Below, in pieces: positions 5,922 through 32,264 of a DNA stretch of 53,335 nucleotides. The notes under the pieces were generated by a model. It saw nothing but the letters and a program-made list of their open reading frames with translations, was not told the origin of the DNA and did not search any database. The stretch covers positions 1-53,335 of the forward strand of contig CACWNQ010000018.1 of the NCBI GenBank assembly GCA_902762385.1, written 5' to 3'. Source of the stretch: an uncultured Bacteroidales bacterium. GTDB lineage: Bacteria > Bacteroidota > Bacteroidia > Bacteroidales > Muribaculaceae. Position 1 is the stretch's first letter. Each line of letters opens with the position of its first letter. A program made the position numbers and the translations under genes.

Positions 5922-8033
5922 TTATCTTATTACGATTTTGCGATTACCATTGATGTAAATGCCTGGTGCCGTGGGCTTGGATTTATAAGAGCGGCCTGTG
6001 ATATCAAACCATAGGTTGCTATCAAATGTTGGTTTATCGTGTGAAACGGTGCCAATAGGTGTCATTCCCTTGATGTATTCAATGCCGGCGGCAGCATCAA
6101 TTTTGCCATAGCCCCACTTGATGGGGTCAACGGCAGTGAACTCGTCGTTGCGAGATGTAGCAGCAAGCACTTCCTTGATATCATCTAATGAGAGGGTGGG
6201 GTCGGCTTGCAGCCACAGGGCGATAATGCCGCTCACAGTCGGGCACGACATCGAGGTGCCGTTCATGCTGCTGTAGGGATATCCCTGCCACTGCATCGTC
6301 TCTGCAACCTCCTTGTCACATGTATAGTGGTTTATCGACGACACGACATGGGTGCCTGGAGCGGTAACAGTGGGTTGTGCTACACCGTTTAACGACACTC
6401 CGTAGCTTGAGGTGTAACAGATATCGTTAAGTGGGTACAAGTCACTAGCATCATGGATCAAACCATAGTAAAGTCGTTCGTTGGTATTTGCCACATAATT
6501 GCCTACGCTGATAACATTTGGTATCGACGTCCAGTCGCCACACGAGAACTCGCTGTCGGCAGGGGTGAAGCCTTCCAAACTCTGGGTGCCAATTTTATCA
6601 AATTCTGATGTCGTTTCCCACAAATCCATCTCGATGGGTGAAGTTGACGACAGCAAAATGAAGAACGGGTAACGTATGCTAAGAATGCCACTGACAGCAG
6701 CTGTGAGATCAATCTTGCCGTCAACAACCGAGCCATATATCGCTACAAAACCATCATGCAGGTAATTCCCAAGAATTTCATCCTCGTCGCTAAGTATCTC
6801 AATTGTGCCGCCCTCAGACAGGGAGATAGTGCATGGCTCTGATAGCCATAGAGTCTCGGCGTCACCGCGATTTGCCATGCCAATCTGAACATTTAACACA
6901 TCGTTCTCGCTCAACACGTTGCGTGAAAAGCCGCGAACTACCGAGCCAAGCATCTTTAGTATGTTGCCCTCTTCGTCAAAGGTTGAAATTGATCGGGCAA
7001 GAAGCGCCTTCATGCTGCTGTTCTCCTCATCAAATGCCTTGTAAATGTGAACAGCTTTATCTCCTTCATTTCCAACACTGAGCACGGGAATGGCATGATT
7101 AGACAACTCATCAATAAGTTCAGGCATTGTGCCTGTGCCATTATGGGGGCCGCTGTGTGAGTTCATGCTTGCACTAACCACAACTCTACCTTCAATTTGC
7201 TGGGAATACTGTGCTGCAAACTGAAAGGCAATCTCGTTTACATTGTGCTCGTTCTCAATCGACACCAGCACAATGTCGGCATCGGGAGCCATGCCGCCAA
7301 ACCCTATCGGAGAACGACTGCCTGCAGCAATGCCAGCGGTGTGTGTGCCATGATCGTCATATTCGGTATCGGTGGTAAGAGTTGCAATGAGTTCGGGAGT
7401 GTCGAACACCGAGCCTGGATACTCAATAGTTCCAGCCTCGTCATCCTCGACGATGAACTTGCGGCCACTGTCATTGCTGGGGAGATAGACGCAACGCAAG
7501 CGTGTGTTGCCGTTGGCGTCCTTGAATGCCGGATGCTGGAAGTCAAAACCTGCATCCACAACGCAGATGGTAACGCCCTCGCCGGTGTAAACCTCTTGAA
7601 CGCCAGGCGTGGTGCCGTCGATAAGGCTCACGCCAGTCTCAACAAGCGAGACATCGGTTTTCAACTCTCCTTTACTTGTTGCATCCACTCTTTTCACACC
7701 CTCTATGGCAACGAGGGCATCAACCTTGCTAGTGGGTATGCTTATCACTGCCTGATGACCAAGCTTTGACAATACAGTGCCGCCAGCTTCACGAATTTGC
7801 GTAAACGTGCTCACTGCATCTTTGGAATCAACCTCCACCACAAGTCTGATGACCGGGTTGGCTTCAAGTGCTCTTACTTTCTTGCCGTTTAATTCATACT
7901 TTGTTGTATGCTTTTGCAACAACGACAGTTGAGCATTAGGGGTGAGTTTGTTGTGTGCACCCGACATGAGAGCACACGAGCAAGCCATCATGGCAAATAA
8001 AACTATCTGTAATAGCTTGTTTCTAATAATCAT
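5922..8033 (-). CDS. secreted subtilisin-like serine protease (S8) with C-terminal tail
   Basis: A 703-residue exported protease. After a signal peptide or lipoprotein-like leader (1-26) comes an inhibitor-I9-like propeptide region (about 60-115). The S8 catalytic domain has the triad Asp160 (VVDAGFD), His228 (DDHGTHTAGIA) and Ser594 (NGTSMSCPTVSG), with the oxyanion Asn322 in SVGNEGD. About 170 residues between Asn322 and the final catalytic block form an insertion typical of large Bacteroidota S8 enzymes. The last 40 residues form a short tail (FDITGR ... GIYINGNRKIVIR) like that of the gene at 3277. Its ATG overlaps the TGA of the upstream DUF3667 gene (ATGA), implying translational coupling. 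Likely cell-surface or periplasmic proteolysis; the target is unknown. Confidence 0.9.
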   Translation of the reverse strand: MIIRNKLLQIVLFAMMACSCALMSGAHNKLTPNAQLSLLQKHTTKYELNGKKVRALEANPVIRLVVEVDSKDAVSTFTQIREAGGTVLSKLGHQAVISIPTSKVDALVAIEGVKRVDATSKGELKTDVSLVETGVSLIDGTTPGVQEVYTGEGVTICVVDAGFDFQHPAFKDANGNTRLRCVYLPSNDSGRKFIVEDDEAGTIEYPGSVFDTPELIATLTTDTEYDDHGTHTAGIAAGSRSPIGFGGMAPDADIVLVSIENEHNVNEIAFQFAAQYSQQIEGRVVVSASMNSHSGPHNGTGTMPELIDELSNHAIPVLSVGNEGDKAVHIYKAFDEENSSMKALLARSISTFDEEGNILKMLGSVVRGFSRNVLSENDVLNVQIGMANRGDAETLWLSEPCTISLSEGGTIEILSDEDEILGNYLHDGFVAIYGSVVDGKIDLTAAVSGILSIRYPFFILLSSTSPIEMDLWETTSEFDKIGTQSLEGFTPADSEFSCGDWTSIPNVISVGNYVANTNERLYYGLIHDASDLYPLNDICYTSSYGVSLNGVAQPTVTAPGTHVVSSINHYTCDKEVAETMQWQGYPYSSMNGTSMSCPTVSGIIALWLQADPTLSLDDIKEVLAATSRNDEFTAVDPIKWGYGKIDAAAGIEYIKGMTPIGTVSHDKPTFDSNLWFDITGRSYKSKPTAPGIYINGNRKIVIR

Positions 8034-9823: not shown

Positions 9824-10603
9824 ATGAAAGTGGAAGACAAGAGTTTGAAAATTAAGAGTTTATGGTGTAAAGAGGCTTACGATGCCTCATTAATGGAGTG
9901 TTGTGCTTTCTGTCGTGGCACCGATGTGTGGCATGGTATTGAGCTGTCGGTTGGTAATATGGTGAGTGGTTATCCTTTTGAAGTTGAGGGTGTTAGATTT
10001 TATAATTCAGAGAGTGCCTACATCGCTGCGGCCTTCTCGTTGGGTACTGATGAGCATCTTGCCATTCAGCGTGAACTTGTTGATTGTCGCAATGGCTTTC
10101 TTGCAAAGAAGAGCATACGTCGCCCCAACACCCACCTCATGCGCAGTGATTGGGAGGAGTTCAATGTGGCTTGGATGCAGTATGTGGTTTGGTGTAAGTG
10201 TGTTGGTAACAGTGATTTTGCTAGTAAGTTGATGTCGATTCCTCGCGAAGTGGTGATCATTGAGAATAGCACATTTCAGAATGGGTCGACTGCCACATTC
10301 TGGGGTACTCTCAACGATGAGTTGAGGCGTTTGACGCAAAATCTCAAGCGTGAGCTTAAGGCTCAAGGATGGAGCAAGGCTGCCATAAGGCGTGAGGCCG
10401 ATGCACGCAGGCTTGGTGAGTGGTCGACGGTGGGAGTGTTTCGTGGCAAGAATGTGATGGGCAAGATACTCATGGCATGCCGTGAGGCACTGTTCACAGG
10501 TGTGCCTCCTGTGATTGATTATGAATGCCTTGCATCGGCCCATATTACCTTGCTGGGCAAGCCTTTAACGTTTGGTGTTGAGGCTCCGACCTTGGCAGCA
10601 TGA
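9824..10603 (+). CDS. NADAR-family protein (YbiA/ADP-ribosyl-glycohydrolase-like)
   Basis: A 259-residue cytoplasmic protein matching the NADAR fold. It has an early aromatic/Glu segment (YNSESAYIAAAFS, about 60-72), a central helix region, IENSTF with FWGTLNDE (about 146-166), and the conserved end GVFRGKNVMGKILMACR (about 204-220). Characterised NADAR proteins cleave N-glycosidic bonds, either in early riboflavin-pathway intermediates or in ADP-ribosylated guanine made by DarT1-type toxins. No DarT-like toxin or riboflavin gene is adjacent. About 60 residues beyond the usual YbiA length (about 160) are spread over an N-terminal extension and an insertion near 175-200. The gene is isolated: divergent on the left and convergent on the right. 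Confidence 0.75.
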   Translation: MKVEDKSLKIKSLWCKEAYDASLMECCAFCRGTDVWHGIELSVGNMVSGYPFEVEGVRFYNSESAYIAAAFSLGTDEHLAIQRELVDCRNGFLAKKSIRRPNTHLMRSDWEEFNVAWMQYVVWCKCVGNSDFASKLMSIPREVVIIENSTFQNGSTATFWGTLNDELRRLTQNLKRELKAQGWSKAAIRREADARRLGEWSTVGVFRGKNVMGKILMACREALFTGVPPVIDYECLASAHITLLGKPLTFGVEAPTLAA

Positions 10604-12557: not shown

Positions 12558-13019
12558 TCAAACCATAGTCGTGCTTCGGTTTCTTATCTTCTTATCATAG
12601 TTTTCGAGTGTGGCAAGGCGGCGCTCGTTGATGGCAATCCTTCGCTGCAAGCCAACAAGTCGGTTACGTTCGTTAACTATTGAACTCTTGAGACGCTCAA
12701 TCACTTCGGCACGGACCGCTGCAAGTGTGCGGAAGAGGTCACTATCGCGCAGCACATCGCCATTGTCAAGCACTATGTCATAATCAGGAAACATTAAATC
12801 ATCACATTTCCATATAAACTGCTTTATGGTACCGCTCTTAATCTTGTACATACAGAATGGTCGTATATAATATATCCTATCGCCAAGCGCGAAATGTCCA
12901 TATACAAACGTGTTAATCTCAGTAATGGGTCCCTCGGGAATGAAACCATCATCTTTAACCTCGTCAAGTTCTTCATCAATTATACTCTTGTTTAATTCTG
13001 TAATCTTTTCCTTTATCAT
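12558..13019 (-). CDS. hypothetical protein with C-terminal coiled coil
   Basis: A 153-residue protein with an acidic N-terminal third, a compact central region rich in aromatic residues (FVYGHF, RIYYIRPFCMYKI) that looks beta-rich, and a basic coiled-coil C-terminus (about 105-145). No known family recognised. It is the last gene of the minus-strand block that includes the AAA+ ATPase and the SprT-like protease, 119 nt after the latter, and may be a partner or adaptor protein of that block. Confidence 0.6.
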   Translation of the reverse strand: MIKEKITELNKSIIDEELDEVKDDGFIPEGPITEINTFVYGHFALGDRIYYIRPFCMYKIKSGTIKQFIWKCDDLMFPDYDIVLDNGDVLRDSDLFRTLAAVRAEVIERLKSSIVNERNRLVGLQRRIAINERRLATLENYDKKIRNRSTTMV

Positions 13020-13138
13020 AATCTTTGATTTTCAATTTATACATTATAATATGGTGATTTTCTTTTAATTATGCAATTTTTTCCACAATAACTTTTTAGG
13101 TGGATACTTTATTGGCTCGCTGGTTGAAAAATCTATTT

Positions 13139-13570
13139 TTACCAGTCAAGTAAGAAGGTCAAAGCCGTGTCCCACCATTTGGGCTCTAGTGACTTGTCGA
13201 TGCGCCTGAAGTGTGGATGCACCCTTACTCTCAAGCTATGCTCGCGAAGGATGCGTCGGCATTTTCGCCTGAATCGCCAGCCATGGCCGAAGAGTCCATC
13301 GTTGTGCTTTTTCTCTACGGTCTCGACATACATGTGTATCATTTCGTGAACAAGAATTTCTCTAAGGTTTTCTTCGTTCCAGATGACACATCGACCAATC
13401 GATATTCGGCTTTTCTCCTTGCCGTCAGCTGCCTTCCACCGGCGGTAAGTGCCATAGGCCGAGTTGTTCTTGCCCGTGAAAGAGAATTGACACGAGTCGA
13501 GCTTGCTATCGAAGTATAGCACGTTATACTCGTCAAACTTTTTCAGTAACAGCTGTTTTGTGACTTTCAT
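13139..13570 (-). CDS. SprT-like zinc metalloprotease
   Basis: A 143-residue protein built around a zincin motif HEMIH (75-79) with Glu76 as the expected catalytic base and His96 (FGHGWRF) as the likely third zinc ligand. This is the SprT/Spartan-type arrangement, in which eukaryotic SPRTN degrades DNA-protein crosslinks; bacterial SprT function is poorly known. The C-terminal zinc-ribbon of longer SprT proteins is absent. Its start overlaps the end of the upstream amidohydrolase-like gene by 38 nt in another frame, so the two are almost certainly co-expressed. Confidence 0.8.
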   Translation of the reverse strand: MKVTKQLLLKKFDEYNVLYFDSKLDSCQFSFTGKNNSAYGTYRRWKAADGKEKSRISIGRCVIWNEENLREILVHEMIHMYVETVEKKHNDGLFGHGWRFRRKCRRILREHSLRVRVHPHFRRIDKSLEPKWWDTALTFLLDW

Positions 13571-14219
13571 TGGCTAAGAGTTTGTCATATATGCGATTAA
13601 GGCAGCCAAACCAGCGCATCCATTGACGCGAGTTTCGGTCAAGCAATAATATGTTCTGGTCCATATAGATCCGGCGATTCACTTTGATTAGCATCGACTT
13701 GCACGATGTGGTGAAAGCAAACTTCTCACAATCAAGGATGCTAACCGTGTAGCCGGAGTTCTTGAACTCACGCATCGCCATGTCCACTATGTCATGGTTG
13801 CGCTCCCAGTCGATGGTGCCCACAAGAATATCACATTCCGTCTCCTTGCCTGTGAAAGAGTGGCATTCAATCAAAACTGAATCCTCGTTGAGGAGACTTT
13901 TAAGCTTATTGTTGTGCTCACGGTGCAAATCGAGCAATGCCGAGTGCTCTGAATTGCTTAGCTCGTTGCGAGTATAGCCACCTTGCTTAGTCCAAATGAT
14001 GGACTCCTCGTCATGGCCCGTCGCGTCGCACACTAGGCGCGAATAGGGAAATACCACTTCTTGAACAGCGGGATTGTGGCTGTAGAAAAGGAAGTCGGTA
14101 TACCAGTCAGTAACACAGCGCACTACATTGTTGATGAAGTGTGGATTGCGTGGCCATTTGCCCAGGTCGAAGATACGTCCTGTTGAACAGTGCGGAATGT
14201 TTAAAACGATGTTATTCAT
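13533..14219 (-). CDS. N-formylglutamate amidohydrolase-like protein
   Basis: A 228-residue protein with the pattern of the N-formylglutamate deformylase family (zinc amidohydrolases related to peptidoglycan amidases and carboxypeptidases). Visible are IPHCS (8-12), the acidic pair in TDWYTD (37-42), RLVCDATGHD (61-70), DLHREHN (97-103) and ECHSF (118-122), which supply the expected metal ligands and substrate Arg. No histidine-degradation genes are nearby, so the usual role in Hut metabolism is unlikely; an amidase acting on a peptide or modified protein is plausible. It overlaps the upstream 348-residue gene by ATGA and the downstream SprT gene by 38 nt. Confidence 0.75.
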   Translation of the reverse strand: MNNIVLNIPHCSTGRIFDLGKWPRNPHFINNVVRCVTDWYTDFLFYSHNPAVQEVVFPYSRLVCDATGHDEESIIWTKQGGYTRNELSNSEHSALLDLHREHNNKLKSLLNEDSVLIECHSFTGKETECDILVGTIDWERNHDIVDMAMREFKNSGYTVSILDCEKFAFTTSCKSMLIKVNRRIYMDQNILLLDRNSRQWMRWFGCLNRIYDKLLANESHKTAVTEKV

Positions 14220-15262
14220 TGGCGTTTTTTGTATTTATAAATATAATGCGCTATTTGATCCACGCCGAGGAACGTTGTACCTGTGATTTCACTTAATTCA
14301 TTCAAACATTCGGATTCGACGCCATAAAGTTTTTGATCCCAATCTTTAATGCGGTGTGTTATGTCATGTCGCTTGGGCTCATATTCCTTTAAGGTAATGA
14401 CTCCTTGTCGCAACATTGCCTTGAGTGGATGAATCGACTCTTTCTCACGTTTTATCTCGTTACTAATGCGTTGCTTTGCGTCTTTGTATTTGGCATAAAT
14501 TCGGCACATGTCTTCACCATATATTTTGTAGAATAAGTCTTCATATCTGTCGTTGAGGTCATCATTTAAGCGATCAAGTTGTTCGACCTTGCTGTTGAGC
14601 CTGATGATAGTGCTCTGCATGAACTCGACTGTGATAGTATGCGAGAACGATGTGTTATCGTTGTTGTCGTCCTCGTTATGAAGAATATCCAGCACTTCAT
14701 CGAGCGAGTAGGCCTGATAGCGACGTTTGGCAGCGGTGTAGCGATTATTTACGCCAATGAACGGTCGCCATTGGCTGATGAACGGGTAGGACGCCCCAAC
14801 ATTATGAATCTCGCCACTCTCGTCAACTCTCTTGCTCCAGTTAGCACCACTAAGCGGACTCCCTGCAAGGTAAAAAACCAGCGAACGAGTGCCGTCTTTG
14901 TCGGTTATCATAGCGTTGGGACATTCTCTCCACCACTCGAGATAGATGCCGAGGGTGGGATTTTCAAAACCGCTAGACCCCGAGTACATCATTCCGCTCT
15001 TAATTGCTATAGGACAAAGAAACATACGGCTGTCGCTGAGGATGCGGTCGCGATGCGCAAGGAGGTAGAACGCGTTGTCGGTAAATAGCTTGCACAAACG
15101 CTTCTTTTCCTTCTCGTCGATTTTGTCATCGTCGACAGTCTGTTTCTCATAGCACGTGAGCTCTGAGCCGTCGAGCAGGAGAATCTTGCCTTCGGGATGC
15201 TCTCCCCTATATTCACTGCCGTTTATCTTCTTGCCAGTTTTCACGTCAACATAATAAGCCAT
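14216..15262 (-). CDS. hypothetical protein with long coiled-coil segment
   Basis: A 348-residue cytoplasmic protein, not recognised. The N-terminal 200 residues are globular, with aromatic-rich stretches (LEWWRECPNAM, SQWRPFIG) and a run of Asp/Asn near 197-204. Residues about 212-300 are predicted coiled coil or helical bundle, and the end is basic. The stop overlaps the next gene's start (ATGA). An intergenic hairpin lies just upstream. It is probably a structural or specificity partner in the three-gene overlapping unit with the amidohydrolase-like and SprT-like proteins. Confidence 0.65.
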   Translation of the reverse strand: MAYYVDVKTGKKINGSEYRGEHPEGKILLLDGSELTCYEKQTVDDDKIDEKEKKRLCKLFTDNAFYLLAHRDRILSDSRMFLCPIAIKSGMMYSGSSGFENPTLGIYLEWWRECPNAMITDKDGTRSLVFYLAGSPLSGANWSKRVDESGEIHNVGASYPFISQWRPFIGVNNRYTAAKRRYQAYSLDEVLDILHNEDDNNDNTSFSHTITVEFMQSTIIRLNSKVEQLDRLNDDLNDRYEDLFYKIYGEDMCRIYAKYKDAKQRISNEIKREKESIHPLKAMLRQGVITLKEYEPKRHDITHRIKDWDQKLYGVESECLNELSEITGTTFLGVDQIAHYIYKYKKRQ

Positions 15263-15313
15263 ATCTATTTATTTAATAAAAGTGTTTAACCAAAATTATA
15301 ATTAAAGGTTACA

Positions 15314-15371
15314 GCCCTCGCAGTAGGTCACTAGGCCTAAAATACATTCCATTGCCTCGCCCAGCGAGGGC
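15314..15371. other. long-loop hairpin between the ATPase and the 348-residue gene
   Basis: An 8-bp perfect GC-rich stem (15314-15321 with 15364-15371) encloses a second short stem (TAGG/CCTA). It lies about 100 nt before the start of the 348-residue gene and could be an internal attenuator or an RNA-processing site dividing the operon. No T-run follows it. Confidence 0.4.
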
Positions 15372-15478
15372 CTACCTTCAATCAAGTCACTAACATTCTA
15401 AAAAACATTCCTTTTCAGTTAAAAACAAATGTCTAACTCAAAAATCTTATTTATGGTACAATACTATTTCTTATATTG

Positions 15479-17233
15479 CTAGAATCCCACACGTCGACGG
15501 TTGTCGTCACCCTCGATTAACTCGTTTTCGCATAGGTCGCTCAGCGAGTCGAGAGGATCTTGTGCGTCGCCATAAAGTATGTTGTTGATGGCATACTTGC
15601 GAGCCACATTTTCGATTTGTCCACCACTGAAATCATACTTCTCGGCCAGTGCTTCGGCTTGCTCGTCGTCGAGCGAGGGTATCATTGCGTGCCATATGTG
15701 CGTGCGTGCTTCGACACACGGACGCTCAAACTTTATCTTGTAAAGGAAACGACGTTCAAAGGCCCCGTCGAGGTTGGACGTGAGGTTGGTCGTGGCAATC
15801 AAGATGCCGTCGAGTGTCTCCATTTCTTGCAAGATAATGTTTTGCATAGTGTTGTACATTTGATCAACGCTACGCTCCACATTCGTAAGTCGCTTGCTAA
15901 AGATTGAGTCGGCCTCGTTAAAGAGCAAGATGGGTGTGATTTTGCTCTTCTTAGCAAGGGCACGGTATTGGTCGAAGATGCTCTTGACGTTTTTCTCGCT
16001 CTCACCCACCCACTTGTCCTTAATTTGAGGCACGTCGACGATTAGGATGTCGCGTTGGGTAGAACGTGCAAGCTGATAAACCGTTTCGGTCTTGCCAGTA
16101 CCTGGACCACCGTAGAAGATACAAGTGAAAGCACTGCGGAAGTTGCTCTGCTTCATACGCTCGACGATGGCGTTGTAACTGTCTTGCTCAAAGAATCTGT
16201 TGAGTTCAGTCACGAGTTTGTCGACTTGAGGCTCGTAGAACAGAGGTTTTTGGGCAATGTCGCTAGCTTTAATTAACTTAAGGAAGTTGTCCTCAAACAA
16301 TTCCTCGTCGTCCTCGTCGTCTTGCGCTTTGGCAATCTTCACACCGACGAGAAGTTGCTTACGACCTTTCTTCGTCAAGGTGATGATGTCGGGATTGGCA
16401 ACTCCGTCTTCGCAGTATGGCTCAACGAGTTTTTTGAGGAGAAGTTCGTTATATCCTTCCTTGATACTGAAACAAAGTTCCGAAGCTTCCATTTGGTCGT
16501 CGAGATACTGCATAATGGCTTGTATCTTGAGCTTCTCAATGCCTCGAGTGCCAAGGGCAGCGCAGAGCATTATCAAACTGAAAGTGCTGCTATAGTTGTC
16601 GAGGTTCAGCTTTTTGAGCGCCTTTACCAGTCGACAGTCGGGATTGGCCTCCAGAATCCATAATATCTCTTCTTGCAGAGCATCGGTGTCCATTCGGTGA
16701 TGGCTAGTTCTTCCCAACAATGTGTTGACGTAGGCGATAAGTTGGTTAGAGTCGAGACCTGTCACTTGTGGGGCCTTGTAGTCTTCGTTGCGAGAGAGCA
16801 ACTTTAGCACGTGACTTGGCACGCTGTAACAGTCGCCTCCAAAACGGCTGTTGACCGAAAGCAGTCGCAAGTGCACGAGAGTTGTCAAGTCATTTACTAG
16901 TGAAATGGCTCGTGCGTTGGTGATATTGAGGAACTCTGCGAGGTCGCTCACTGTCACTTGATTAAAATCGTTCTCGATGCACACACCCATTAAGAACGCT
17001 TGCATTTTGTTGATGCCCAGTCGCTTTGAGAGATAGCTGAGCTCGGGTTCAACGGCACTGAGCCCCTCGTCGGTAAACTCATTGTGCGTTGCTACCAGTC
17101 CCACTCGATCGAACGCTTGCAACAGTGATGTTGGTGCTGTTTCGAAACCATTGATCTTTCCCTCTTCGTTGTCTGCGTCAATTCCCATTCTCTTAGTGTC
17201 CTTCGTAACTTTTTTGTATCTTCTAACTGCCAT
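15479..17233 (-). CDS. AAA+ ATPase with N-terminal winged-helix-like region
   Basis: A 584-residue ATPase. The C-terminal AAA+ module has Walker A GGPGTGKT (375-382), a pore/ESEK region (VGESEKNV, about 409-416), a Walker B variant ILLFNEAD (435-442), sensor 1 TTN (481-483) and arginine-finger candidates in FERRF (492-496), like FtsH/SpoVK/classic AAA proteins. Asn439 replaces the usual first acidic residue of Walker B, but the catalytic Glu440 is kept. Residues about 40-330 form a helical region with winged-helix-like segments (LAEFLNITNARAISLVNDLTTL) and an acidic linker at 303-315. It probably acts as a hexameric remodelling motor for the block; DNA or protein substrate unknown. The 161-nt upstream gap contains a strong hairpin. 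Confidence 0.85.
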   Translation of the reverse strand: MAVRRYKKVTKDTKRMGIDADNEEGKINGFETAPTSLLQAFDRVGLVATHNEFTDEGLSAVEPELSYLSKRLGINKMQAFLMGVCIENDFNQVTVSDLAEFLNITNARAISLVNDLTTLVHLRLLSVNSRFGGDCYSVPSHVLKLLSRNEDYKAPQVTGLDSNQLIAYVNTLLGRTSHHRMDTDALQEEILWILEANPDCRLVKALKKLNLDNYSSTFSLIMLCAALGTRGIEKLKIQAIMQYLDDQMEASELCFSIKEGYNELLLKKLVEPYCEDGVANPDIITLTKKGRKQLLVGVKIAKAQDDEDDEELFEDNFLKLIKASDIAQKPLFYEPQVDKLVTELNRFFEQDSYNAIVERMKQSNFRSAFTCIFYGGPGTGKTETVYQLARSTQRDILIVDVPQIKDKWVGESEKNVKSIFDQYRALAKKSKITPILLFNEADSIFSKRLTNVERSVDQMYNTMQNIILQEMETLDGILIATTNLTSNLDGAFERRFLYKIKFERPCVEARTHIWHAMIPSLDDEQAEALAEKYDFSGGQIENVARKYAINNILYGDAQDPLDSLSDLCENELIEGDDNRRRVGF

Positions 17234-17305
17234 AAAAAAAACTATTTATTGTTATTACCACTTTGTTTTAAAACATTCATTATTTAATACATTCGGTTTC
17301 GCACT

Positions 17306-17333
17306 TGGGATGTGTGATGTTTCACACACCCCA
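17306..17333. other. hairpin upstream of the AAA+ ATPase gene
   Basis: A stem of about 12 bp (TTGGG plus TGTGTGA paired with TCACACA plus CCCAA, one internal mismatch, 4-nt loop) lies about 73 nt before the ATPase start. No T-run follows on the minus strand; a regulatory or mRNA-stability element is possible. Confidence 0.45.
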
Positions 17334-17394
17334 AAGTTACTCACCCCACAAGAATAGTCCAAACAATACGGACCGGAACCACATAAAGGCTGTT

Positions 17395-17793
17395 TCAAGC
17401 AGCACGTTTTGTGCTTTGTAAGGGCCTTAGACGCTTATTGCCGTAGAATATCTTTTCAAGCAATGTCGCCTGCTCTTTAGTGAGGCCAAAAACGTACACC
17501 TTATAGGGGTACTCGTCGCTCGACCTCATTACCTCATAATCGTTGTCTAAAAGGAAGTAGTAGAAACTGTCGAAGTTGTTGCGCGACGTGGTTGAAAATG
17601 TGCGTTGTGAGGTGCCACGCTCGTTGTTGTTGGGAACATAGCAATTGCTGTAATCGTTGATCTCAGCAATGTCTTCGCTCAGCATGTTTTCTTCTTCATT
17701 GATGTCGACATAGTTGTCGTCGGCAATAAGGTTTAAAATGTCAGTGTCATTCTTGTTTGTCATAAACTCTTCAATGAAATCTCCAATTTTCAT
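17395..17793 (-). CDS. hypothetical acidic protein
   Basis: A 132-residue protein. The first 60 residues are strongly acidic and probably disordered (runs of Asp, Glu, Asn), followed by a Ser/Thr-rich linker and a compact C-terminal region with aromatic residues (FYYFLLDNDY, YKVYVFGLT). No signal peptide or membrane segment, no known family. It is the first larger gene after the promoter and leader at 17.8-18.5 kb and directly precedes the AAA+ ATPase. It could be an adaptor or inhibitor of the ATPase. Confidence 0.6.
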   Translation of the reverse strand: MKIGDFIEEFMTNKNDTDILNLIADDNYVDINEEENMLSEDIAEINDYSNCYVPNNNERGTSQRTFSTTSRNNFDSFYYFLLDNDYEVMRSSDEYPYKVYVFGLTKEQATLLEKIFYGNKRLRPLQSTKRAA

Positions 17794-17920
17794 ATTAATT
17801 CTGTTTTATAAATTATTAAATTATTAATAATGGTGACAGTGATAGCAACCTCAGAAACGTTACATATAAGGACATAACGCTCCCACTGTCAAATGAGGAT
17901 TTAAGAAGGAAACCTTGCCG

Positions 17921-18052
17921 TTACTTGGTAGGTTTAAGAACGACACCAACCATAGAAGTTAGTGATAATACATTGCCTAAAATCGTGCCGTGCGACGACA
18001 GTTGCGATATAGTGCAACGCTGATTAATTAGAAAGTGAATTGATTTTGCCAT
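17921..18052 (-). CDS. possible 43-residue microprotein
   Basis: A small ORF starts MAKSIHF after an A-rich stretch typical of Bacteroidota start contexts and ends LKPTK. It is hydrophobic to amphipathic, with one Cys. It lies in the leader downstream of the promoter at 18434-18465 and about 130 nt before the 132-residue gene. Could be a leader peptide or chance; no family recognised. Confidence 0.35.
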   Translation of the reverse strand: MAKSIHFLINQRCTISQLSSHGTILGNVLSLTSMVGVVLKPTK

Positions 18053-18433
18053 TTTTTTAATTTTTACAAGAGTATTAAGTTGTTAATCTCTGTCGTGTCA
18101 ATTTACCACCGTGACAACACCTCTGAAAAATCAGAGCAACGACTACCTGTTGATTTTGTGGTAGACAACACGCGATAGCAATACGCGTGCTTATTGCTCG
18201 GTTGGTGCAGTTAAAACTGACTCTTAACACTGTTTCCTTGCTCCATAGAAGTAAGGAAATCAAGAACAATATGTTTAGAACTAACTATCATTAATATCAA
18301 AATGACTTGTGCAAAATTACAATATATATTCGAAAAACACATAAGAAAAAAGTTAAATAATGTTTCACAAATCATTTTCTATAATTTTAAGTTGTTCTTG
18401 ACTGATCGTGAACTCCATCACGATTATTTACAA

Positions 18434-18465
18434 CAAAGATAAGTAGTTTATTTGAAATATGCAAA
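18434..18465 (-). promoter_or_regulatory. promoter of the leader/ATPase transcription unit
   Basis: On the minus strand TTTG (18465-18462) is followed after 20 nt by TATCTTTG (18441-18434), matching both Bacteroidota promoter elements at the expected spacing. The predicted start near 18427 is immediately followed by a 7-bp hairpin. Confidence 0.7.
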
Positions 18466-18580
18466 TTTTTTTGGCAAAAACTGCAAGTGTTTATCAAAGA
18501 ATTTTTCTACACCTTATTATATATAGAGACTTGGGTTGGACTCTAAAAACTGTGGGTCCAGAGACGCTCTCATGCAAGAG

Positions 18581-18602
18581 GCCGTCAACTTACGGCCTCT
18601 TC
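18581..18602. terminator. hairpin at the end of the nuclease-like gene
   Basis: An inverted repeat of about 9-10 bp (GAGGCCGT paired with ACGGCCTC, 6-nt loop) includes the stop codon of the 153-residue gene. A T-rich run follows on the plus strand but not on the minus strand, so its role in ending the minus-strand gene is uncertain. Confidence 0.4.
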
Positions 18603-19046
18603 TTTCATTTCTTTGAACAAAGCGTTCATTCGATTGAAGTTGTCTTCAGTTAAGGCTATTGCCGGTTTCTTCTTGTTTCGCTTGGTTTTCTTGTTGCCTT
18701 TAAGATCAAGATTGAAATATATCTTGAAGGGTGGTATGGTCGAGTTCTTGATGAACTCGTGAGGGGTGTACTTCTTGAACTCAAAGGTGTCGTCGTCCTT
18801 CTTGATTGCGACCACAAAGAAGTAGCGGTCGGGTGTCTTGAAGGCTTGTTCCCACTCGGTAAGGGTCGCTGCTCCAAAGTAGGTGTCGGTGCGACTAGTC
18901 ATTTTGATTTCAAAATACCAGGTCTCGCCGTCCTTGGTTGCGACAATGTCGGCTGGTTCAGCCTTAACTACTGCGGTATCAAAACCGTTACTTAAAAGTT
19001 CATTAATGTAGGCATTCTTTGCCATAATGTCATTTTTATTTGCCAT
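18585..19046 (-). CDS. PD-(D/E)XK nuclease-like protein
   Basis: A 153-residue protein with the core pattern of PD-(D/E)XK nucleases or VRR/DUF3883-like domains: a possible helix Glu16, then PADIVA with Asp33, and FEIK with Glu46 and Lys48 after a beta-hairpin-like segment, followed by an alpha-beta stretch. The C-terminal third is very basic (KGNKKTKRNKKK) and could bind nucleic acid. Several such small proteins are restriction- or repair-associated. It is the most upstream member of the minus-strand block but is separated from the rest by an independent promoter, so joint function is inferred only from position. Confidence 0.6.
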   Translation of the reverse strand: MANKNDIMAKNAYINELLSNGFDTAVVKAEPADIVATKDGETWYFEIKMTSRTDTYFGAATLTEWEQAFKTPDRYFFVVAIKKDDDTFEFKKYTPHEFIKNSTIPPFKIYFNLDLKGNKKTKRNKKKPAIALTEDNFNRMNALFKEMKEEAVS

Positions 19047-31220: not shown

Positions 31221-32264
31221 ATGAAAAAGATTTTACTTGCACTTTTAGCGTTTTTCGCTTGCAATGTGGCAATGAATGCCGCTGTGTATGGCGACGTGAA
31301 CGGTGATGGAACCGTAAATGCGTCGGATGTGACTGAGCTTTACAATTATTTTCTTAATGGTGACCTCACTTATGCTGCCACTTGCGACGTGGACGGCGAC
31401 GGAACCATCACAAGCTATGACATAACCGAACTATACAACATCCTACTAGGTAATACTACTCCTCCAGAGGAAGGCGTGACCGAATACACCGTTAATGGCG
31501 TGACATTCAAGATGGTTGACGTTGAGGGAGGCACATTCATTATGGGAATTGACCAACATATAGGAAGTGCTTATCCTCCTCACGAAGTTACACTGAGTTC
31601 TTATAGCATTGGTCAAACTGAGGTCACCCAGGAGTTGTGGGTGGCTGTGATGGGTTCGAATCCAAGCTATTGCAATGAATATGGAAATGCCGATGTGCAC
31701 TCTAATCATGATTCATGGGACGCAGGCATCAATCTCCAGCGACCTGTTGACTATGTGAATTATAGCGACTGCTTAGCATTTTGTGCAAAACTCAATGAGA
31801 TGACAGGCTTGAACTTCCGCATCCCTACCGAGGCCGAATGGGAGTTTGCCGCTCGTGGTGGCAATAAGAGCCAGGGCTATGTGTACGCCGGAAGCGACAG
31901 CATTGATGATGTAGCTTGGTACAAAGGGACTGAAGAGTCCCCAGGGACTCTTCCTTCAATGGTACTATGGACCGAAGGTTGGGGCACACAGACCGTTGCG
32001 ACCAAGGCTCCCAACGAACTTGGAATCTATGACATGTGTGGCAACGTTGAGGAATGGTGCTATGACTGGTTTGCTCCTTATAGTTCTACCGCAGAGCCAC
32101 TGACCAATCCGACAGGACCAGAGACAGGAACATATCGAGCCATGCGAGGTGGCCATTTTATAACCACCAACCCAGGACTTATGAAAGTGTATTATCGCAA
32201 TCAGCAGAACCCTGACGCTCGCGGCAACTCCCGTGGCCTGCGCATCGCTTTATCGGCCGAATAA
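31221..32264 (+). CDS. secreted dockerin-like and FGE-sulfatase (SUMF1)-domain protein
   Basis: 347 residues. Signal peptide (1-20); two dockerin-type calcium loops (DVNGDGTVNASDVTELYN at about 25-42 and DVDGDGTITSYDITELYN at about 56-73); then a formylglycine-generating-enzyme-like domain (about 88-345) with the family blocks EGGTFIMG, QTEVTQELWVAVMG, RIPTEAEWEFAARGG, ELGIYDMCGNVEEWCYDWF and RGLRIA. No cohesin is visible in the window. Whether it oxidises sulfatase Cys is unknown; many bacterial FGE-like domains are not enzymes. Own promoter and terminator. Confidence 0.8.
   Translation: MKKILLALLAFFACNVAMNAAVYGDVNGDGTVNASDVTELYNYFLNGDLTYAATCDVDGDGTITSYDITELYNILLGNTTPPEEGVTEYTVNGVTFKMVDVEGGTFIMGIDQHIGSAYPPHEVTLSSYSIGQTEVTQELWVAVMGSNPSYCNEYGNADVHSNHDSWDAGINLQRPVDYVNYSDCLAFCAKLNEMTGLNFRIPTEAEWEFAARGGNKSQGYVYAGSDSIDDVAWYKGTEESPGTLPSMVLWTEGWGTQTVATKAPNELGIYDMCGNVEEWCYDWFAPYSSTAEPLTNPTGPETGTYRAMRGGHFITTNPGLMKVYYRNQQNPDARGNSRGLRIALSAE

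Follow-up and report, generated by a model that had tools for sequence, protein, structure and literature searches.

The window analyzed here, the whole 53,335-nucleotide stretch of an uncultured Bacteroidales genome (G000; 2.89 Mb in 37 contigs), carries at positions 12558-19046 a block of seven minus-strand genes, gA to gG. Its central members are a small protein (gF), an AAA+ ATPase with a winged-helix N-terminus (gE), a 348-residue protein (gD), a hydrolase resembling N-formylglutamate amidohydrolase (FGase; gC), and an SprT-like zinc protease (gB). A first-pass annotation, made from the sequence of this stretch, had proposed that all seven genes form one system. As stated, this proposal is not supported: genes related to gG are rare near AAA+ genes, gA shifts position among loci, and the block resolves instead into separable parts. 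Comparative genomics shows a core consisting of the AAA+ protein and a small partner (gF here, a protein of ~69 residues elsewhere), the partner often bearing an ssrA-like tail; gD, gC, and SprT are a clade-specific addition to that core.

The AAA+ ATPase and its small partner

The gE gene (15479..17233) encodes a 584-residue, classic-clade AAA+ ATPase, characterized by the PF00004 profile (82.4 bits against a cut-off of 21.2), alignment A1, a structure model, a fold comparison, and a count of C-termini. Its best relatives in the PDB are AFG2 and VCP-like ATPases, and beyond the general AAA domain no named family scored over its cut-off. Among 19 related sequences, the Walker A motif (GxxGTGKT), the sensor 1 asparagine (TxN), the arginine fingers (AFERRF), and the sensor 2 region (SGGQ) are invariant. 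The canonical Walker B motif hhhhDE is absent, and all 98 AAA+ relatives carry NEAD in its place, retaining the glutamate while replacing the aspartate with asparagine. The winged-helix N-terminus is probably DNA-binding. At the other end of the protein, a GF pair with at most seven residues behind it is found in 96 of 98 relatives and could be a docking signal.

A profile built from the 19 sequences of A1 recovered 45 AAA+ genes in 29 of the 61 genomes surveyed from the genus. In a wider scan of species genomes, at least 557 stretches encode relatives, the best 79 of which were kept as loci for comparison; we take their titles to denote Bacteroidota (Prevotella, Muribaculaceae, Bacteroidaceae, and Paludibacteraceae). 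The AAA+ family is common in gut and rumen Bacteroidales, and three plasmid records, from Prevotella and Segatella, cover at least 80% of gE. Beyond Bacteroidales, proteins 46-49% identical to the AAA part of gE are encoded on plasmids of Aliarcobacter (L166) and Chryseobacterium (L167), with WYL genes near.

Upstream of gE, gF (17395..17793) encodes 132 residues comprising an acidic N-terminus (residues 1-60 contain 16 D/E and 3 K/R) and a C-terminal domain. The last 70 residues match the ~69-residue partner family end to end (hhalign of A4 against A5; probability 76%, E 2.2e-5), a relationship that is new in this analysis. Elsewhere, the ~69-residue open reading frame (ORF) lies upstream of many AAA+ genes and, in a sister clade, just downstream. 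With a profile made from copies near AAA+ genes, 21 of the 22 matches above 100 bits in the 61 genomes share the strand of an AAA+ gene and lie no more than ~1.3 kb from it, G002:C84 standing apart; two weak matches (32 and 25 bits) sit away from AAA+ genes.

The partners share a characteristic ending. A[AS] terminates 35 of 39 and LA[AS] 23 of 39, compared with 21 and 2 of 1883 other proteins of these loci, although the hidden Markov model used includes C-terminal columns and may favor copies with the common tail. The transfer-messenger RNA (tmRNA) of the window genome encodes the tag GENNYALAA, and the partner in L085 ends exactly in YALAA. ClpXP recognizes LAA tails. Since the partner ends resemble the host's own tmRNA tag, it is a natural inference that the tail is a genome-encoded degradation signal. 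This tailed partner family had been overlooked by the first-pass annotation, as had the structured leaders and the NADAR-like gene described below.

The gD-gC-SprT cassette and its linkage

The gD gene (14216..15262) encodes a conserved N-terminal domain of ~200 residues followed by a C-terminal helical hairpin, as judged from alignment A2 of 24 relatives. The structural comparison suggested by the first-pass annotation yielded a confident model (predicted local distance difference test, pLDDT, 90.8) but little else: fold searches of the PDB and of viral structures returned mostly coiled-coil rows and no significant match, and hardly probed the N-terminal domain. The adjoining gC (13533..14219; 228 residues) overlaps gD by 4 nucleotides and matches PF05013, N-formylglutamate amidohydrolase (2.2e-9; 38.2 bits, cut-off 28.9), with the motifs IPHxS, SR, CHSF, and VN[RK]R invariant in five sequences; a sequence search found no solved structural relative. 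Overlapping gC in turn by 38 nucleotides, gB (13139..13570; 143 residues) contains a complete SprT domain (PF10263, 1.6e-11; 44.5 bits, cut-off 25.6), in which H75, E76, H79, H96, and G97, comprising the HExxH motif and third histidine, are invariant among 16 aligned sequences. The families that the first-pass annotation had read from motifs in gE, gC, and gB thus hold in profile searches, each over its cut-off, and both reading-frame overlaps are borne out.

Gene order provides further evidence for association. The arrangement gF-gE-gD-gC-gB recurs in L066, a locus of a second species (G296), where gE is ~50% identical to that of the window and gD is shortened. In L016, gF-gE-gD-gC is present with no SprT gene after it and with in-frame stops in gE; in L017, gF-gE-gD lies close to a contig end. 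In L057, from a different genus, gD and gC overlap as well. Within the genus, five of seven clear gD genes lie within ~0.5 kb downstream of an AAA+ gene; of the others, one (in G284) adjoins two NADAR genes and one is found in G057. One further gD row (G016, E 6e-4) was discarded as spurious. Comparing gene order across relatives, as had been proposed, gives a divided answer, in that the full order recurs but gD, SprT, and NADAR are also found without the AAA+ gene. Contig ends hide part of these neighborhoods.

The SprT survey of the 61 genomes returned 66 rows, of which the 20 above 30 bits were kept and the 46 at or below 28.2 bits, none of them near an AAA+ gene, were dropped. Ten of these 20 genes, spread over 5 of the 15 loci, are encoded downstream of an AAA+ gene and on its strand, 1.0-7.2 kb away. 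The probability of this linkage is 1.3e-10 on the assumption of independent random placement, with the window genome included and 14 SprT loci entered rather than the 15 later counted; without the window (4 of 14 loci), a hand estimate gives ~3e-8. Some islands hold three differing SprT-related genes (L020:4933-6515, L074:13704-15148, and L146:8234-14879), some of them shortened in L020.

In a FastTree phylogeny of 98 AAA+ proteins, from which broken or cut copies (e.g., L016, L020, and L147) were left out, the window protein falls in a clade of ten rows with local support of 100, which holds five of the six SprT-linked and six of the seven gD-linked rows. The sixth SprT-linked row, L061, lies far from this clade, and its locus also has gD (upstream), SprT, and NADAR. 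Because both the window clade and the distant L061 show the grouping, the association of gE, gD, and SprT extends beyond a single lineage. The one-system proposal is thus retained in part: AAA+, gD, gC, and SprT are linked beyond chance, but gG and gA are not fixed members, and most AAA+ relatives are found without SprT or gD.

The block itself looks like an accessory insertion, since the genes that flank it in the window have different neighbors in G010, G011, and G001. Broken copies in G010 and G002 fit an accessory gene. Purifying selection was observed as well.

Leaders and neighboring genes

Several structured leaders accompany the block, again on the minus strand. The gF leader (17794..17953) contains a long hairpin of 14 pairs, counting G-T, that was reached by 1 of 300 shuffles, and by eye it resembles the leader in L017. 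The gE leader (17234..17394) carries a hairpin ~95-109 nucleotides ahead of the start codon that is kept in four species despite differing sequence. In the window its stem has 14 pairs counting G-T (1 of 300 shuffles), with a Watson-Crick core of 7 that is not unusual (53 of 300); the Watson-Crick pairs number 9 in L016, 10 in L017, and 10 in L066 (1, 0, and 1 of 300 shuffles, respectively). For the window clade, RNAalifold gives a weak result for this leader (four sequences, covariation term +1.12), and the claim rests on the hairpins. Upstream of gD, a conserved structured element (15263..15395) was identified by nhmmer with 72% identity to L016; it is conserved in three species, and its consensus fold (A11, three sequences only) reaches -35.7 kcal/mol. 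A hairpin by itself was rejected for this leader, whose longest simple stem is no better than in shuffles. The leaders look regulatory.

Regions upstream of AAA+ genes fold more stably in general, with z below -2 in 39 of 71 compared with 35 of 170 others. We do not claim a family-wide leader RNA; in several cases outside the window clade, the structure resembles a terminator belonging to the gene upstream. Rfam gave no match at gathering in the whole window, and relaxed settings, applied to the block and L053, gave chance-level rows only. A structured RNA-like element does lie upstream of the sister-clade AAA+ gene in eight loci (L053:12646-12764, L054:9475-9594, L074:9724-9843, L018:9397-9516, L146:5371-5494, L067:9717-9818, L020:11428-11547, and L076:9739-9850), matching no Rfam family at gathering in L053, the sister-clade locus checked. 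It is identified by covariation: every cell of helix 1 is paired, both partners change in 7 of 19 pairs, and the signal disappears in slid controls. Its covariance model, searched against 34 chosen sources (630 kb), found only the eight places used to build it.

The membership of gA (12558..13019; 153 residues) is uncertain; related genes occur near AAA+ genes in six other loci, in other positions, and gA is assigned to their common gene pool. At the opposite end of the block, gG (18585..19046) encodes a NOV_C / PD-(D/E)XK-like protein (PF13020, 7e-5) that is probably separate from the module, as the first-pass annotation had allowed; among the loci compared, a relative occurs near one other AAA+ gene (L076, ~7 kb off).

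Outside the block, beyond an AMP-ligase gene, a plus-strand NADAR-like gene (9824..10603) matches PF08719 at 7.4e-6 and 26.7 bits, below the cut-off of 35.1. It is a possible associate of the same gene pool. Its product ends in TLAA, and close relatives in L148, L149, and L151 likewise end in AA. NADAR-like genes lie near AAA+, gD, or SprT genes in L018, L020, L053, L061, L148, and L149; among the 20 NADAR rows of the genus, 5 (the window's included) are within 8 kb of an AAA+ gene and 15 are not. The islands of relatives hold, besides NADAR genes, an ADP-ribosyltransferase-like protein (below cut-off), microbial PARG, and a YspA-type SLOG protein. At L020:2608-4733, NADAR, ADP-ribosyltransferase-like (below cut-off), and microbial PARG genes stand in a row beside AAA+ and SprT, and at L154:4223-5323 a NADAR domain (66.2 bits, above its cut-off) and a weak ADP-ribosyltransferase-like stretch (22 bits, under its cut-off) share a single ORF.

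An ADP-ribosyltransferase was considered as a module part and rejected: 4 of 44 DUF3990 rows in the genus lie near an AAA+ gene (G022:C22, G002:C41, G017:C75, and G057:C8, the last three below cut-off). The first of these, at G022:C22:30712-31152 (in L028), is a strong DUF3990 gene (160 bits) separated by ~0.3 kb from the AAA+ gene, which lies on the other strand. In G000, a type of search that also missed the gC gene of that genome, which hmmscan finds, detected no DUF3990-type transferase; the genome-wide search covered this transferase family alone. Elsewhere in the window, an S8 subtilase gene (5922-8033) adjoins a methyltransferase gene and is not adjacent to the block, and the gene at 31221-32264 encodes an FGE-sulfatase-type domain with an N-terminal dockerin-like repeat.

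Interpretation and relation to known systems

We interpret the block as one form of a mobile accessory module that combines an unfoldase, a labile partner, and a clade-specific gD-gC-SprT cassette, with a putative role in conflict or defense, and we give this reading a probability of roughly 0.4. ClpXP would keep the small partner scarce; a stop in translation or another disturbance of the cell, for example by an invading element, might then cause the partner to vanish and release the AAA+ protein, which may engage proteins held on nucleic acid and unfold or extract them. The SprT protease would cut the extracted proteins, gD could act as a scaffold or recognizer, and gC may trim peptides or a modification. 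The theme of the islands (NADAR, the ADP-ribosyltransferase-like protein, and PARG) points away from housekeeping and toward a conflict over modified nucleic acid or protein. A bolder version, which we consider unlikely in its entirety, would make the block an unfoldase-Spartan machine with a built-in translation sensor, in which the ssrA-like tail lets ClpXP clear the partner once synthesis stops, the DNA-bound AAA+ strips proteins and passes them to SprT, gD acts as the recognizer, and gC and NADAR handle modifications: a convergent counterpart of Cdc48-Spartan in phage or plasmid conflict. Paired with a degron-tailed small protein that is nearly dedicated to it, the AAA+ protein offers a switch open to direct testing.

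Several observations weigh against the accessory-module reading. The Walker B aspartate is asparagine in every one of the 98 relatives, and therefore ATPase activity of gE cannot be presumed. Most AAA+ relatives, in Bacteroidota islands and on plasmids, lack SprT and gD: SprT lies downstream in 6 of the 98 tree rows, gD is present at 7 and gC at 2, and SprT linkage changes at least six times on the tree. SprT also occurs on stretches without AAA+ (L148, L150, L152, L153, and L156, with L148 and L153 ending near the SprT genes), while gD is found in 14 of 247 family genomes, with AAA+ on 3 of the 13 fetched non-window stretches (L053, L054, and L061), and matches no plasmid or phage record. A sensitive search recognized a partner within 2.5 kb for 32 of 104 AAA+ genes, diverged partner copies elsewhere could escape the profile, and gF of the window ends in KRAA, not LAA, making a weaker case for a degradation tail. 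Finally, genes can come to share an island without sharing a function, and the defense and crosslink-repair roles considered here are read from genomics.

The last point leads to the main rival, which is only somewhat less probable than the module reading, a balance that rechecking the counts left unchanged: the AAA+ and its partner, the gD-gC pair, SprT, and NADAR may be separate cargo of the same plasmids and islands, each acting alone. Most AAA+ relatives do have other neighbors; among the best 79 of at least 557 stretches, a WYL-like family occurs in 20 loci and a 3'-5' exonuclease-like family in 11 (named from sequence reading, annotated plasmid relatives, and, for L163, a profile), and plasmids additionally encode DUF262 and HAD proteins and, next to an S8 peptidase, an IetA-like ATPase. 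The infrequency of AAA+ on the gD stretches of the family, the gD and NADAR genes of L149 on a stretch without AAA+, the SprT and NADAR genes of L148, and the 15 NADAR rows with no AAA+ gene inside 8 kb point the same way. Independent cargo would not, however, readily account for gD and SprT sharing the AAA+ strand downstream of it, for a gD-gC overlap in two genera, for a partner almost confined to AAA+ neighborhoods in the genus, or for the second AAA+/gD/SprT/NADAR grouping in L061. It is improbable that the block is an IetAS-like anti-phage system with SprT replacing the subtilase that partners IetA. The AAA+-plus-protease logic is shared, and IetA models of PADLOC (6.1e-25) and the NCBIfam IteA model (3e-23) do match gE, but both on its AAA domain, which alone aligns; the score of 82.6 bits compares with a curated cut-off of 510, and a separate IetA-like protein beside an S8 peptidase in L165 reaches 220.7 bits. 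Further, no S8 protease adjoins the block, four ORFs separating it from the S8 gene of the window.

The block might alternatively be the chromosomal remnant of a host-takeover or counter-defense kit carried by large plasmids or jumbo phages, which we regard as quite improbable. Parts of this toolkit do recur in genetic conflicts, since some jumbo phages are reported to carry SprT (in one to three copies) and several to carry NADAR, with YAcAr SLOG and MoxR-vWA genes also reported for some (PMC7824862). The SprT triplets, NADAR, PARG, and YspA-type SLOG genes of relatives' islands and the full-length AAA+ on Prevotella and Segatella plasmids are consistent with such an origin. However, viral_contigs yielded a relative for neither gE nor gD, in searches that detect only close relatives. 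Coverage of gE stays below 80% in every phage record (29 of them match the AAA part), gD is matched by no phage or plasmid record, and no structural phage genes appear among the profile matches of the block. Very improbable, in our estimation, is a housekeeping role as a bacterial counterpart of Cdc48/p97-Wss1/Spartan crosslink repair. In its favor are the AFG2 and VCP-like relatives of the AAA+, the SprT partner, and the Wss1-Cdc48 complex of yeast as described in PMC4559962. The patchy presence of the AAA+ (29 of 61 genomes), its broken copies, and the form of gB, a bare SprT domain, argue against it. A bare domain of 143 residues could hardly accommodate the segments through which the eukaryotic proteins bind their partners.

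The accessory module described here has no documented counterpart with the same gene set in the literature within reach of our search, which excluded most subscription papers and bioRxiv preprints; the first-pass annotation had likewise named none. Partial likenesses to known systems are nevertheless apparent. As in NADAR and DarT1-NADAR modules, NADAR genes lie in and around the islands, and L154 (NADAR with a weak transferase-like stretch) and L020 (PARG) also resemble such modules, although the window's own NADAR-like gene falls under the Pfam cut-off. As in toxin-antitoxin systems with a labile antitoxin, a small neighboring protein carries a predicted degradation signal, clearer across the family than for gF; unlike in those systems, the AAA+ is not a known toxin fold and no toxicity is known. 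IetAS/IteAS shares a related AAA domain and the pairing of AAA+ with a protease in island settings, but the full-length score is far under the cut-off, and the block has a winged-helix N-terminus, SprT instead of S8, and the additional gD, gC, and gF. Lastly, p97 and Spartan cooperate. Compared with Cdc48/p97-Wss1/Spartan, gE has one AAA domain, no ubiquitin or SUMO parts were seen, and the link is a genomic one; but a classic-clade AAA ATPase again stands beside an SprT-type zincin, and the repeated AAA+-SprT link would, if true, extend unfoldase-Spartan cooperation to bacteria.

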